From assembly GCA_024278955.1 (NCBI GenBank), contig JAJRSE010000012.1:62001-126000 (forward strand): a stretch of DNA of 64,000 nucleotides. Direction: 5' to 3'. Positions 39,780 to 43,547 of the stretch are shown here, piece by piece (position 1 is the stretch's first letter; each line of letters begins with the position of its first letter). This stretch comes from Planctomycetota bacterium (lineage in GTDB: Bacteria > Planctomycetota > Planctomycetia > Pirellulales > Lacipirellulaceae). The position numbers and the translations under genes are program-made. The notes beneath the pieces were generated by a model, which did no database searches, was not told the origin of the DNA, and saw only the letters and a program-made list of their open reading frames with translations.

Positions 39780-39858
39780 TTTTTCCAATTCCTAACCCCA
39801 TCCGATGGTGCCGTCCGATAGGACGAACGCCTACCACAAAACGAAACCTCAGCAGACC

Positions 39859-40692
39859 ATGCAAGAACTCTACGAAAAAATCCAAGCCGCCACCGTTGCG
39901 ATCCAAAAACAGTGGGGCGAAAAACCAAAAGTTGGAATCATCCTCGGCACCGGGCTTGGAAGCTTTGCCGACCAGATTGAATCTCCTGTCACGATCGACT
40001 ACCAAGACATCCCCCACTTCCCGCGGTCCACTGTCGTCGGCCATCGTGGCCGTTTGGTTTGTGGACAGTTGGAGGGAGTGCCAATTGTTGCGATGGAAGG
40101 TCGCTTCCATCAGTACGAAGGCTACTCACTGCAAGAGATCACGCTTCCGGTGCGAGTGATGAAAGCCCTGGGGGCCGATCTGATGATGGTCACTCAGGCT
40201 GTCGGCGGCATGAATCCGCTCTATCAACCGGGCGAAGTCATGATTCTTGATGACCACATCAATCTGATGGGCGCCAATCCGTTAGTCGGTCTCAACGACG
40301 ACCGTCTCGGTGTCCGTTTTCCTGACATGTCTGCTCCCTATACGCCAGAGCTTATCGAGGTTGGCCTCGAAGTCGCCCGCAAAGAAAACTTCGTCGCCCA
40401 TCGGGGCGTCATGGTTGCTGTGACGGGGCCGAATTTGGAAACTCGGGCCGAGTATCGCTTCCTGCGGTTGATTGGCGCCGATGTCGTTGGGATGTCGACG
40501 GTTCCCGAGGTGATCGTCGCGGTGCATAGCGGCTTACGCGTTTTCGGCGTCTCGGTGATTTCCGACATGTGCTTGCCCGATGCTCTCGAACCAGCCAACG
40601 TCGAAGAAATTATCGCCGTGGCTGCCTCCGCCGAACCAAAACTACGCTCCCTTCTCCTTGGAGTATTAGCCCACGAAGCCAAGAAAGGTTAA
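39859..40692 (+). CDS. purine nucleoside phosphorylase, copy 1 (Asp at the base-recognition site)
   Basis: 277 residues of the trimeric PNP/MTAP family. Start ATG 39859 is chosen by alignment with the second copy. Motifs: VGIILGTGLGSFAD (phosphate loop), GHRGRLVCGQLEG, EGRFHQYEGYS, VTQAVGGMNPLY, GPNLETRAEYRFLR (Glu that binds N1/N7 region), VGMSTVPEVIVAVHSG and GVSVISDMCLPDAL. Asp236 aligns with Asn243 of human PNP; Asp at that site favours 6-amino purines in engineered PNP and occurs in MTA phosphorylases. It may therefore prefer adenosine-type substrates. Followed by a repeat element and a paralogue. Confidence 0.9.
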   Translation: MQELYEKIQAATVAIQKQWGEKPKVGIILGTGLGSFADQIESPVTIDYQDIPHFPRSTVVGHRGRLVCGQLEGVPIVAMEGRFHQYEGYSLQEITLPVRVMKALGADLMMVTQAVGGMNPLYQPGEVMILDDHINLMGANPLVGLNDDRLGVRFPDMSAPYTPELIEVGLEVARKENFVAHRGVMVAVTGPNLETRAEYRFLRLIGADVVGMSTVPEVIVAVHSGLRVFGVSVISDMCLPDALEPANVEEIIAVAASAEPKLRSLLLGVLAHEAKKG

Positions 40693-40709
40693 TGCCAAAT
40701 TTTTCTACA

Positions 40710-40909
40710 GCCTAATGCTACAACGCTAGGTTGAACCACAACGACACGACGGGCACAACGAAAAGGAGCTAGGGTTTCAATGATTTTTCCTCGACCAACA
40801 GGTTGACATGTTGTTTCCTGAAAAATGCCTACCCAACAAAACACCGTTCCTTATTCGTTTGTCCTAGTTTTTTGCTATGACGTGGTGTTCGTCCTGTCGT
40901 CTTGGTTTT
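40710..40909. repeat. dispersed intergenic element, copy B
   Basis: GCCTAATGCTACAACGCTA (40710-40728) and the block 40789-40909 match copy A at 14252-14410, the second part in inverted orientation. Copy B itself has inverted ends: GAACCACAACGACACGACGG near 40733 against GTGTTCGTCCTGTCGTCTTGG near 40884-40905. AGCCTAA at its left edge (40709) recurs at about 40928. It separates the two PNP genes. Confidence 0.7.
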
Positions 40910-40947
40910 AATAACTTTTCTCGATAGCCTAACATTTCCTCCCCTCT

Positions 40948-41775
40948 ATGCTCCAACTCTCACAGCAAATCGAAGCCTCTGCCGCTGCGGTCAAGCACCG
41001 CTGGGCTGTCACGCCTCGTGTAGGGATTATACTTGGCTCGGGTCTCGGCGATTTGGCCGACCTCATTGAGGTAGAGCAAATGATCGCCTATTCCGACATT
41101 CCCCATTTCTCCCACGTTTCAGCTCAAGGCCATCGTGGCCGACTCGTTTGTGGAGACATCGCTGGCGTATCCGTGGTTGCCTTTCAAGGTCGATTTCATC
41201 TTTACGAAGGACACACGCCCCAGCAAACGGCGTTTCCTGTTCGATTGGTACAATCGTTAGGCGCCGACACGTTGATGGTTTTCAATGCCGCTGGCGGGTT
41301 GAACCCTTCTTATGCGGTAGGCGATTTAATGTTGATTGAAGATCAAATCAATTTTATGTTTGCTAACCCGCTGGTCGGCATCAATGACGATCGCCTTGGG
41401 CCTAGGTTTCCTGATATGTCGGAGCCCTTCGACCCGCAGCTTGGCGAGATGGCCGTTGAGGTTGCCCGTCGAGAGGAATTTATTCTCCACCGTGGTGTCT
41501 ACACGTCGATGTTAGGCCCCACTTACGAGACGCGAGCTGAGTATCGTATGCTACGGCGTCTGGGTGGCGACGCAGTGGGTATGTCGACCGTTCCCGAAGT
41601 TCTTGCCGCTCGCCATGCGGGTATACGAGTGCTTGGGGTCTCGACGATCACCAATGTCGGCCTCCCCGACGCCTTGGGCAAAACAACCGGACACGCAGTG
41701 CTCGAAGTAGCTGCGGCAGCTACCGAAAAGCTTGCTAGAATCATTCAGGGCGTAGTTGCAGGGATTTCACCATGA
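40948..41775 (+). CDS. purine nucleoside phosphorylase, copy 2 (Asn at the base-recognition site)
   Basis: 275 residues, clearly a paralogue of copy 1. Motifs: VGIILGSGLGDLADLIE, GHRGRLVCGDIAG, QGRFHLYEGHTPQ, FNAAGGLNPSYAVGDLM, GPTYETRAEYRMLRRLG, VGMSTVPEVLAARHAG and GVSTITNVGLPDAL. Asn236 matches human PNP Asn243, so inosine and guanosine are the expected substrates. It releases the base and ribose-1-phosphate. The stop codon overlaps the thymidine phosphorylase start (ATGA), which implies coupled translation. Confidence 0.92.
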   Translation: MLQLSQQIEASAAAVKHRWAVTPRVGIILGSGLGDLADLIEVEQMIAYSDIPHFSHVSAQGHRGRLVCGDIAGVSVVAFQGRFHLYEGHTPQQTAFPVRLVQSLGADTLMVFNAAGGLNPSYAVGDLMLIEDQINFMFANPLVGINDDRLGPRFPDMSEPFDPQLGEMAVEVARREEFILHRGVYTSMLGPTYETRAEYRMLRRLGGDAVGMSTVPEVLAARHAGIRVLGVSTITNVGLPDALGKTTGHAVLEVAAAATEKLARIIQGVVAGISP

Positions 41776-43109
41776 ATCCAGTTTGGACCCTCGAAAAAAA
41801 GCGAGATGCTGCGGAGCTCTCCGACGCGGAGATCGGCCACTTTATCGCCGGCTACGCCGCAGGCGATATTCCCGACTACCAGATGTCGGCCCTCGCCATG
41901 GCAATTTTTTTGCAGGGAATGACGCCTGCCGAAACGGCATCGCTAACCGAGCACATGCTCGCCTCGGGGGTGACGTTCAAATGGCCTAATGACGGGTTGC
42001 CGAAGGTCGATAAACATTCCACCGGAGGCATCGGCGACAAAGTTTCGTTGGTTCTTGCCCCGATGCTCGCTTGCTGTGGATTGCAGGTGCCGATGATTTC
42101 GGGCCGTGGCTTGGGCGCGACGGGAGGCACACTCGATAAGCTGGAGTCGATTTTCGGTTTCCGTACCGACCTGACAATGGGGGAAATAGTCCAAGTCGTC
42201 GACAAGGTCGGTTGCGTCATTACCGGGGCAACTGCCGATCTCGTGCCAGCCGACCACAAACTTTACGCCCTTCGCGACGTTACGGCTACGGTTCCTTCGA
42301 TCCCTCTAATTACCGCCAGCATCATGAGCAAAAAACTGGCCGAGGGGCTCGACGCTTTGGTACTTGATGTAAAATTCGGGAGTGGGGCTTTTATGAAAAC
42401 CCTGGAGTCCGCCCGCGAGTTGGCTCAGTCTTTGGTCGAGACGGGCAATCGGATGGGCGTTAAAACTACGGCACTGCTAACCGACATGAACCAGCCGCTG
42501 GGCCGCATGGTGGGCAACGCCGTCGAGGTTGACGAAGCGGTCGCCGCCCTGGAAGGCAGCGGCCCTGCGGACCTGATGGAAGTTACGCTTGCGCTCGGAA
42601 CTGAGCTGCTTCTCTCGGTTTCGAGTGACAGCAAAAATCCCCCTCCCTCGCAGAGAGGGGATAGGGGAGGGTTTGTAGCGGCAGCCAATTTAGCTCGCAA
42701 GCAACTCCAAGAAACAATCAACTCAGGCAAGGCGCGAGAAAAATTCGCAGAAATGGTAGCCGCCCAAGGTGGCAACCTCGATATTCCGCGCCCGGTGGCT
42801 CCCAAAAGCGAGATCTTGGCAACCCAATCAGGCTACGTCGCTTCGATCGATGCCGAGCAACTTGGCCAAGCCGTGATCGCAATGCACGGCGGTCGCCGCC
42901 AACTGGGCGATAAGCTAGACCATTCGACCGGTTTTGAAATGCAAGTCCGGCTTGGCGATCACGTCGACGTTGGCCAACCGCTTGCTTTCGTTTATGTTCC
43001 GAAAGAGTGTAGCAATGAAGGTAAGGCAAAAGTGGCCAAGGCGATTCATCTTGACGAAGAATTTCCGACCGTTGGCGACTTGGTTATGAATTGCACGGTT
43101 GATATCTGA
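41772..43109 (+). CDS. deoA: thymidine/pyrimidine-nucleoside phosphorylase with a repeat-derived insertion
   Basis: 445 residues. Motifs: DYQMSALAMAIFLQGMT, the signature-region KVDKHSTGGIGDKVSLVLAP (phosphate and catalytic His), MISGRGLGATGGTLDKLESI, VPADHKLYALRDVTATV and SIMSKKLAEGLDALVLDVK. It phosphorolyses thymidine, deoxyuridine or uridine. At about residues 285-303 family members go straight from the ALGTELL helix to an A...A..L segment; here SDSKNPPPSQRGDRGGFV is inserted, encoded by a palindromic G/C-rich repeat at 42635-42675. The frame is preserved, so the protein is probably still made. Confidence 0.9.
   Translation: MNPVWTLEKKRDAAELSDAEIGHFIAGYAAGDIPDYQMSALAMAIFLQGMTPAETASLTEHMLASGVTFKWPNDGLPKVDKHSTGGIGDKVSLVLAPMLACCGLQVPMISGRGLGATGGTLDKLESIFGFRTDLTMGEIVQVVDKVGCVITGATADLVPADHKLYALRDVTATVPSIPLITASIMSKKLAEGLDALVLDVKFGSGAFMKTLESARELAQSLVETGNRMGVKTTALLTDMNQPLGRMVGNAVEVDEAVAALEGSGPADLMEVTLALGTELLLSVSSDSKNPPPSQRGDRGGFVAAANLARKQLQETINSGKAREKFAEMVAAQGGNLDIPRPVAPKSEILATQSGYVASIDAEQLGQAVIAMHGGRRQLGDKLDHSTGFEMQVRLGDHVDVGQPLAFVYVPKECSNEGKAKVAKAIHLDEEFPTVGDLVMNCTVDI
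42635..42675. repeat. REP-like palindrome inserted inside deoA
   Basis: CCCCCTCCCTCGCAGAGAGG followed by GGATAGGGGAGGGTTT: CCCTCCC pairs with GGGAGGG and an inner CCCTC pairs with GAGGG. This composition differs sharply from the surrounding coding sequence and looks like intergenic repeats of environmental bacteria. Its length plus flanks is a multiple of three, which keeps deoA open. Confidence 0.7.
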
Positions 43110-43139
43110 AGAATTCCCCAAAAGCGTGAAGAGATTGAC

Positions 43140-43547
43140 ATGATACTGGAACCGCAACTCCAGCAGCTGCTGATCGAAAAATCGGTGGCCGCTCGTGACC
43201 GCGCCTATGCCCCCTACTCGAAATTCCAGGTAGGCGCGGCCGTACTTGCCGAGGATGGGACAATTGTTTCTGGGGCGAATGTCGAGAACGCTTCGTTTGG
43301 CTTGTCGCTTTGCGCCGAGCGGGTGGCCGCCGCAGGGGCGGTCGCTGCGGGACACCAAAACTTAGCAGCGATTGCAATCGCGACCTGTGGAGCCGCTGCT
43401 CCCTGTGGGGCGTGTCGGCAGTTTTTGGCTGAGTTTGGCCCCGAAATGGTCGTGCTGCTTGTTGATGCCGACGGGCCAGAAAACGTACGCGAAACCACGC
43501 TGAAGAATCTTTTGCCCGAGCAATTTCACTTGGATTCGATGCGGTAA
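43140..43547 (+). CDS. cdd: cytidine deaminase
   Basis: 135 residues, the size of homotetrameric Cdd. Motifs: RAYAPYSKFQVGAAVLAEDG, GANVENASFGLSLCAERVA (zinc Cys and catalytic Glu) and PCGACRQFLAEFG (two zinc Cys). It converts cytidine and deoxycytidine to uridine and deoxyuridine, feeding the upstream pyrimidine phosphorylase. It lies 30 bases after deoA in the same direction, hence probably one operon. Confidence 0.95.
   Translation: MILEPQLQQLLIEKSVAARDRAYAPYSKFQVGAAVLAEDGTIVSGANVENASFGLSLCAERVAAAGAVAAGHQNLAAIAIATCGAAAPCGACRQFLAEFGPEMVVLLVDADGPENVRETTLKNLLPEQFHLDSMR

Follow-up and report, generated by a model that had tools for sequence, protein, structure and literature searches.

How does a conserved metabolic enzyme come to carry, within an uninterrupted reading frame, a C/G-rich palindrome of a type expected between genes? 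The question is raised by the thymidine phosphorylase gene deoA in the 64,000-nucleotide stretch of DNA analysed here (hereafter, the window), where the original prediction had placed such a palindrome in frame; both the DNA and its translation were confirmed. The host gene is:

41772..43109, + strand: deoA/pdp, thymidine (pyrimidine-nucleoside) phosphorylase, 445 aa, frame intact

The product belongs to the DeoA family, as evidenced by NCBIfam models over cut-off (NF004490, 530 bits against a cut-off of 269; TIGR02644, 512 bits against 409), by conserved residues and by its fold, and Pfam identified the domains Glycos_transf_3, Glycos_trans_3N and PYNP_C. Apart from the insert the gene appears normal: residues H82, R168, S183 and K187, which we take to be catalytic, fall in columns that are invariant across 41 aligned rows, the protein itself being one of them. 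The gene is located in a run of nucleoside genes, with two purine nucleoside phosphorylases on its 5' side, a cytidine deaminase on its 3' side, and a hypoxanthine phosphoribosyltransferase gene nearby on the opposite strand. The two purine nucleoside phosphorylase genes are adjacent and lie directly upstream of deoA, at 39805-41775. The genome that holds the window (G000) is probably a metagenome bin, consisting of 146 contigs with 93% completeness.

In the element a single left arm can pair with either of two right arms. Its core, AATCCCCCTCCCTCGCAGAGAGGGGATAGGGGAGGGTTT (42636-42674), is translated as NPPPSQRGDRGGF, corresponding to DeoA residues 289-301, and the following parts were recognized:

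42636..42674, + strand: REP-like element, 39-nt core; match to model R1 at 42634-42678, 47.2 bits
42639..42649, + strand: left arm, CCCCCTCCCTC
42652..42660, + strand: first right arm, AGAGAGGGG, 89% complementary to 42640-42648 of the left arm
42664..42671, + strand: second right arm, GGGGAGGG, after a 3-nt spacer, ATA
42675..42683, + strand: probably the rest of the net 48-nt insertion, as suggested by the loop lengths (62 versus 46 residues) and by other copies in the genome, which extend to GAATC or similar

R1 is a sequence model derived from six copies, the deoA copy being one of them, and it scored that copy at E 3.4e-13 in 267,623 bases (the window plus the deoA regions of 20 relatives). 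Over 47 nt, four of the six frames across the deoA copy are open, and three other forms of the repeat have 3, 2 and 3 open frames. The RNA of the deoA copy was predicted to fold at -20.4 kcal/mol (z -2.26; 5 of 200 shuffles were as low); two other copy forms gained nothing over shuffled versions of themselves (z -0.31 and -0.43), hence fold strength by itself is weak evidence. No Rfam family matched 41700-43200 at gathering thresholds, and a strict palindrome pattern with a six-base loop matched another site only, missing the deoA copy.

We examined the rest of the genome for copies of the palindrome. A blastn search with the window stretch identified three further places in G000 (E 6e-8 to 7e-4), a 78-nt query composed of two copies found more than that, and a 31-base pattern allowing at most 3 mismatches matched 3 places, its reversed control matching none. 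R1 ranked six places in G000, deoA included, at E 8e-11 or better, and a seventh passed E 0.001 in the phylum-wide search. The block had been open to the objection that it occurs nowhere else in the genome, and these six strong copies remove it. Of the five besides deoA, four lie outside or just upstream of genes, in agreement with the expectation that the palindrome is of a usually intergenic type, and one is in frame:

C18 copy: between genes that are presumably tgt-like and yajC-like
C136 copy: between two frames
C97 copy: in no frame of at least 60 residues
C81 copy: between genes that are presumably purA-like and uppS-like; a frame starting from a TTG would include the copy, but the ATG comes after it
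C35 copy, L051:609-1943, - strand: in frame, opposite strand, in a cysteine-desulfurase-like gene, peptide GPALTPPSEREGSGSS

The best NCBIfam matches of the C35 host gene are cysteine desulfurases, all below their cut-offs. The loop that contains this copy measures anywhere between 42 and 77 residues in 29 relatives, and is hence a tolerant site.

That blastn, pattern and R1 all match indicates that the deoA block is not a chance palindrome. The proposal that it arose through C/G-rich coding drift, or is an artefact of assembly, could draw on the fragmented state of the assembly and on the fact that half-pattern matches occur near expectation (7 found versus 4.1 expected); we consider it barely credible in view of the full-length copies in G000, of the R1 hits across the family (39 of 43 genomes at E up to 1, G000 included, among the best 142 candidates per genome), and of the protein family models, which run across the insertion site.

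To what extent the block lengthens the enzyme was determined from the loop between two alignment anchors. This loop comprises 62 residues in the DeoA of G000 versus 46 in 94 of 122 rows (loci, with the own deoA counted and some genomes present twice), a net increase of 16 residues (48 nt), slightly fewer than the 'about 18' extra residues first proposed; the exact ends of the insertion cannot be set because the loops of the nearest relatives differ too much. The remaining 28 rows comprise 6 above 46 (own deoA included), 21 at 33-45 and one at 0, so that most homologues do have the shorter turn that had been anticipated, and three relatives central to the argument below (G007, G008 and G001) are at the usual 46. 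The longer loops besides that of G000 belong to its congener G013 (70), G064 (61, found as both L056 and L072), L096 (53) and L124 (49). Within these six rows a repeat-like loop sequence occurs in the DeoA proteins of G000 and G013 only, and R1 likewise matched the own deoA and that of G013 only, in the window and the deoA regions of 20 relatives; within these rows and regions, distant homologues hence do not show the segment. The DeoA of G064 has a +15-residue insert at the same loop, with a sequence unlike that of the repeat. In G014 (L039), the deoA frame is broken near this loop, which may be real or an assembly error.

An AlphaFold model of DeoA (41 rows) had a mean pLDDT of 92.6 and located the insert between two predicted helices, residues 266-283 and 298-317. 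The block means there were 67 (281-290) and 62 (291-300), with residues 287-289 below 50; other low blocks were observed at 111-120 (70) and 441-445 (50). The best match among solved folds was 1brw (TM 0.90), where the corresponding segment is a short turn. The insert is therefore modeled as what is probably a flexible loop between two helices.

The repeat is widespread in the family of G000, which is probably Lacipirellulaceae (Planctomycetota). Two genomes of this family, G009 and G029, encode DeoA proteins identical to those in records of a Bythopirellula sp. and of Adhaeretor mobilis, organisms classified in Lacipirellulaceae. R1 matches reach at least 142 per genome in relatives (best 142 candidates), and the copy number in G000 itself is low. 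Across the phylum, at least 40 of 294 genomes were matched at E 0.001 (best 20 candidates per genome), and R1 matched none of the 16 listed genomes (one family) that belong to the same class outside the order (best 20 candidates per genome); the distribution is patchy, because these 16 lack matches while many more distant genomes have them. A typical copy reads AATCCCCCTCCCT-nnn-AGGGAGGGG-(C/T)TA-GGGGAGGGTTT. To characterize such copies we used a sample of 69, which are best-scoring rather than random: 29 of the 30 loci from the family search (one per genome, with the C18 copy representing G000; L199 was left out, being short of E 1e-4), 20 places in G002, and 20 in G009, G015, G018, G034 and G035. 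The spacer between the right arms is CTA or TTA in 60 of the 69; the deoA copy has ATA. Of 70 sampled loci, 24 had an opposite-strand partner near the copy, at a distance of 13-89 nt in 22 cases. With a palindromic core of 39 nt, many copies in relatives and avoidance of the interiors of long frames, the element is a REP in the broad sense. It represents an apparently undescribed, untagged repeat family of Planctomycetota; a literature search, weak in its coverage of subscription journals, retrieved no description of the repeat or of the deoA insertion.

Such repeats may be moved by a RAYT-like transposase, and we considered this candidate. Genes of the Y1-transposase family PF01797, which covers more than RAYTs, are present in 42 of the 43 family genomes. 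R1 matched near 1 of 30 and 0 of 19 PF01797 loci in two sets that have three places in common (part of the hits, with flanks of ~1.5 kb, some cut by contig ends), and R1 copy number, for which the counts are lower bounds, was uncorrelated with the PF01797 count over the 43 genomes (Spearman 0.03, p 0.87). A RAYT-like mobiliser is thus unsupported by either the locus scan or the copy-number comparison. We also sought clean empty sites in the largely collinear genomes G027 and G063, where 400 kb of each yielded 3 matches, all at corresponding places, and hence no such site. The AMP-binding site of G034, examined by eye, likewise seemed to be shared with G027, where the copy is worn. Mobility is thus inferred from the scattered and patchy occurrence of the repeat together with the DeoA insertion, rather than from an empty site.

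Comparison with known systems places the repeat close to, and apart from, three of them. In the accessible portion of PMC3733652, GTAG/CGTC REPs are described as lying mostly between genes, with some wholly inside ORFs, including those of tRNA synthetases; the recB REPs of two Xanthomonas species occupy about the same site, and Planctomycetes are listed among the phyla with such repeats. The planctomycete repeat resembles these intragenic REPs, as far as that portion describes them, in being a short palindrome that is mostly intergenic and sometimes within an ORF. It differs in that its consensus has no GTAG/CGTC tag (counting both strands, 10 of 69 copies have GTAG close to an end and 13 of 69 have CGTC, as raw counts without a chance control) and in the scarcity of Y1 genes nearby (the 1 of 30 and 0 of 19 loci above). 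Rickettsia palindromic elements, according to the part of PMC10969869 available to us, are about 150 bp long, lie in frame in unrelated metabolic genes and add a peptide. The deoA element is likewise a palindromic repeat in frame in a metabolic gene, adding peptide; on the published description, by which alone the two were compared, it differs in length (39-48 nt) and in host phylum. The opposite-strand partners at 24 of 70 loci are REPIN-like, REPINs being paired inverted REPs in the portion of PMC3116915 seen; unlike REPINs, the deoA copy is single, and a linked RAYT is not established.

The presence of copies in deoA and in the C35 gene raised the matter of how often the repeat enters genes. 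A stop-to-stop frame of at least 150 residues enclosed 32 of the 69 sampled copies. Pfam analysis of all 32 revealed same-frame domains on both sides of the copy in 8, downstream only in 7 (one of which, L318, scored under Pfam's cut-off) and none in 17. The 8 with domains on both sides, none of them from G002, are:

L177 (G064): valyl-tRNA-synthetase-like
L186 (G025): von Willebrand protein
L188 (G061): isoleucyl-tRNA-synthetase-like
L306 (G018): isoleucyl-tRNA-synthetase-like; Pfam scan only
L193 (G020): glycine dehydrogenase subunit GcvPB; over NCBIfam cut-off
L195 (G005): FtsX permease; place of the second FtsX stretch inferred
L312 (G035): ribonuclease R; over NCBIfam cut-off
L316 (G034): AMP-binding enzyme

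The synthetase names rest on partial genes below NCBIfam cut-offs. Frames open for at least 60 aa on both sides were observed for 15 of the 69 copies versus 43.0 expected from random places in the same loci; the repeat therefore avoids genes, and its in-frame copies look like those that survived. With respect to the original prediction that a mobile repeat was turned into protein, what the sequence shows is an open frame, through which the repeat would be translated; the event is not unique, as evidenced by the C35 copy and the 8 of 69 sampled copies.

The second occurrence of the repeat in DeoA, in G013, bears on when the insertion took place. G013 is a congener of G000, not its sister, and its DeoA loop is 24 residues longer than usual. 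Its insert agrees with the core of the family repeat at 22 of 27 positions; among 1,122 control windows drawn from the surrounding 11.5 kb the maximum was 17, and among 5,000 shuffles of the insert region it was 19, the 27-nt core having been chosen after the family copies had been seen. R1 scored this insert weakly (11.3 bits, E 0.069 in 267,623 bases), so that the core match is the stronger support. Both inserts occupy the same loop, strand and frame (PLQGPARGE in G013 versus PLQGGARGG in G000). The G000 copy matches 24 of the 27 core positions and 36 of 39, that of G013 22 and 27, respectively; with 24 versus 22 matches, core wear does not make the G013 copy much older. G013 has 2 R1 matches in total at E up to 1 (best 142 candidates), and blastn of this genome with its own insert revealed no good second copy (best other match 19 nt, E 0.16), making a recent source within G013 less likely.

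Two histories could account for the two inserts. A single old insertion in the ancestor that G000 shares with G013, followed by precise loss in G007, in G008 and G001, and elsewhere, or else a transfer together with deoA, would explain why both inserts are one repeat in the same strand and frame and why their 27-nt cores show little difference in wear. The deoA tree alone groups G000 with G008 and G001 (90/48) rather than with G007, and is compatible with a G000 and G013 pair (p-AU 0.157). On pnpA+pnpB, however, G007 is sister to G000 (100/99) and the pair is rejected (p-AU 8e-6), as it is when deoA is added (p-AU 0.0086); the concatenated trees were made without the G034 pnpA and G033 pnpB hits and those covering <60% of the query. 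Even on the deoA tree the fewest insertion changes are two. Repeated losses would furthermore each have needed to return the loop to precisely 46 residues, and the G000 copy still agrees with the typical form at 36 of 39 positions, even though outside the loop only 72% of residues are shared by the two DeoA proteins. We hence regard a single old insertion or a transfer as unlikely. Two insertions fit best, because G007, G008 and G001 have the 46-residue loop, and the same DeoA loop was quite probably hit independently in G013.

Our preferred reading, to which we assign a probability of roughly 0.88, is that a non-autonomous REP-like element inserted in the helix-helix turn of DeoA after the split from the nearest sampled relative and is a tolerated passenger. 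It is based on the repeat nature of the element, the intact in-frame gene, the shorter loop in most homologues and the predicted position of the loop. A REP-like copy would have entered this turn of deoA in the G000 lineage after the separation from G007; judging from the sequence, the insertion would have been tolerated and near-neutral, leaving an enzyme that still works. It would have survived because the frame was kept, the frame in use has no stop, and what was added is a flexible Pro/Gly/Arg loop. That the added loop was instead recruited, for regulation, for binding of a partner or as an RNA hairpin adjusting how strongly the downstream genes are expressed, is in our judgment highly improbable: the better folding of the deoA copy than most shuffles and the arrival of the repeat in the same loop in two lineages, where G064 has its insert of another sequence, are in line with it, but model confidence in the loop is low, no more than 27 of 39 positions are retained in the G013 copy, folding of the other copy forms does not exceed that of shuffles, and copies are depleted inside genes. 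A tolerated passenger remains the best reading of the added loop, and no evidence of a new function was found.

These data add a repeat family of Planctomycetota to those that write peptide into conserved enzymes, a phenomenon already established, in the sources as far as accessible, in Rickettsia, several other Proteobacteria and one member of the Verrucomicrobia. They also suggest that a REP family can lack an obvious RAYT partner, and in this family the question of the mobiliser is testable. With the loop filled in G000, short in G007, and filled and worn in G013, the three genomes offer a natural test of how an enzyme loop tolerates sudden insertion. A broader and rather speculative proposal, which we hold as doubtful, is that an untagged REP family with no RAYT in evidence has time and again furnished core enzymes with in-frame loop peptides (NPPPxQGGARGGF, or PSPSPSLxGRG when antisense) and that the same tolerant loop is hit in separate lineages, as with DeoA in G000 and G013; if true, parallel loop growth in conserved enzymes would be a predictable product of one repeat family.

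The isoleucyl-tRNA-synthetase-like copies L188 and L306 were considered as a second parallel insertion. They lie in one loop, between YANIDGFDP and DELDRW, with 80 and 89 residues between these anchors, respectively. The candidate was dropped: G061 and G018 are two species of one genus (g6), hence a shared insertion is simpler. The L306 copy is an inverted pair of the repeat. The closest counterpart of the L316 AMP-binding enzyme, L361 in G027, seems by eye to contain a worn copy at the same place.
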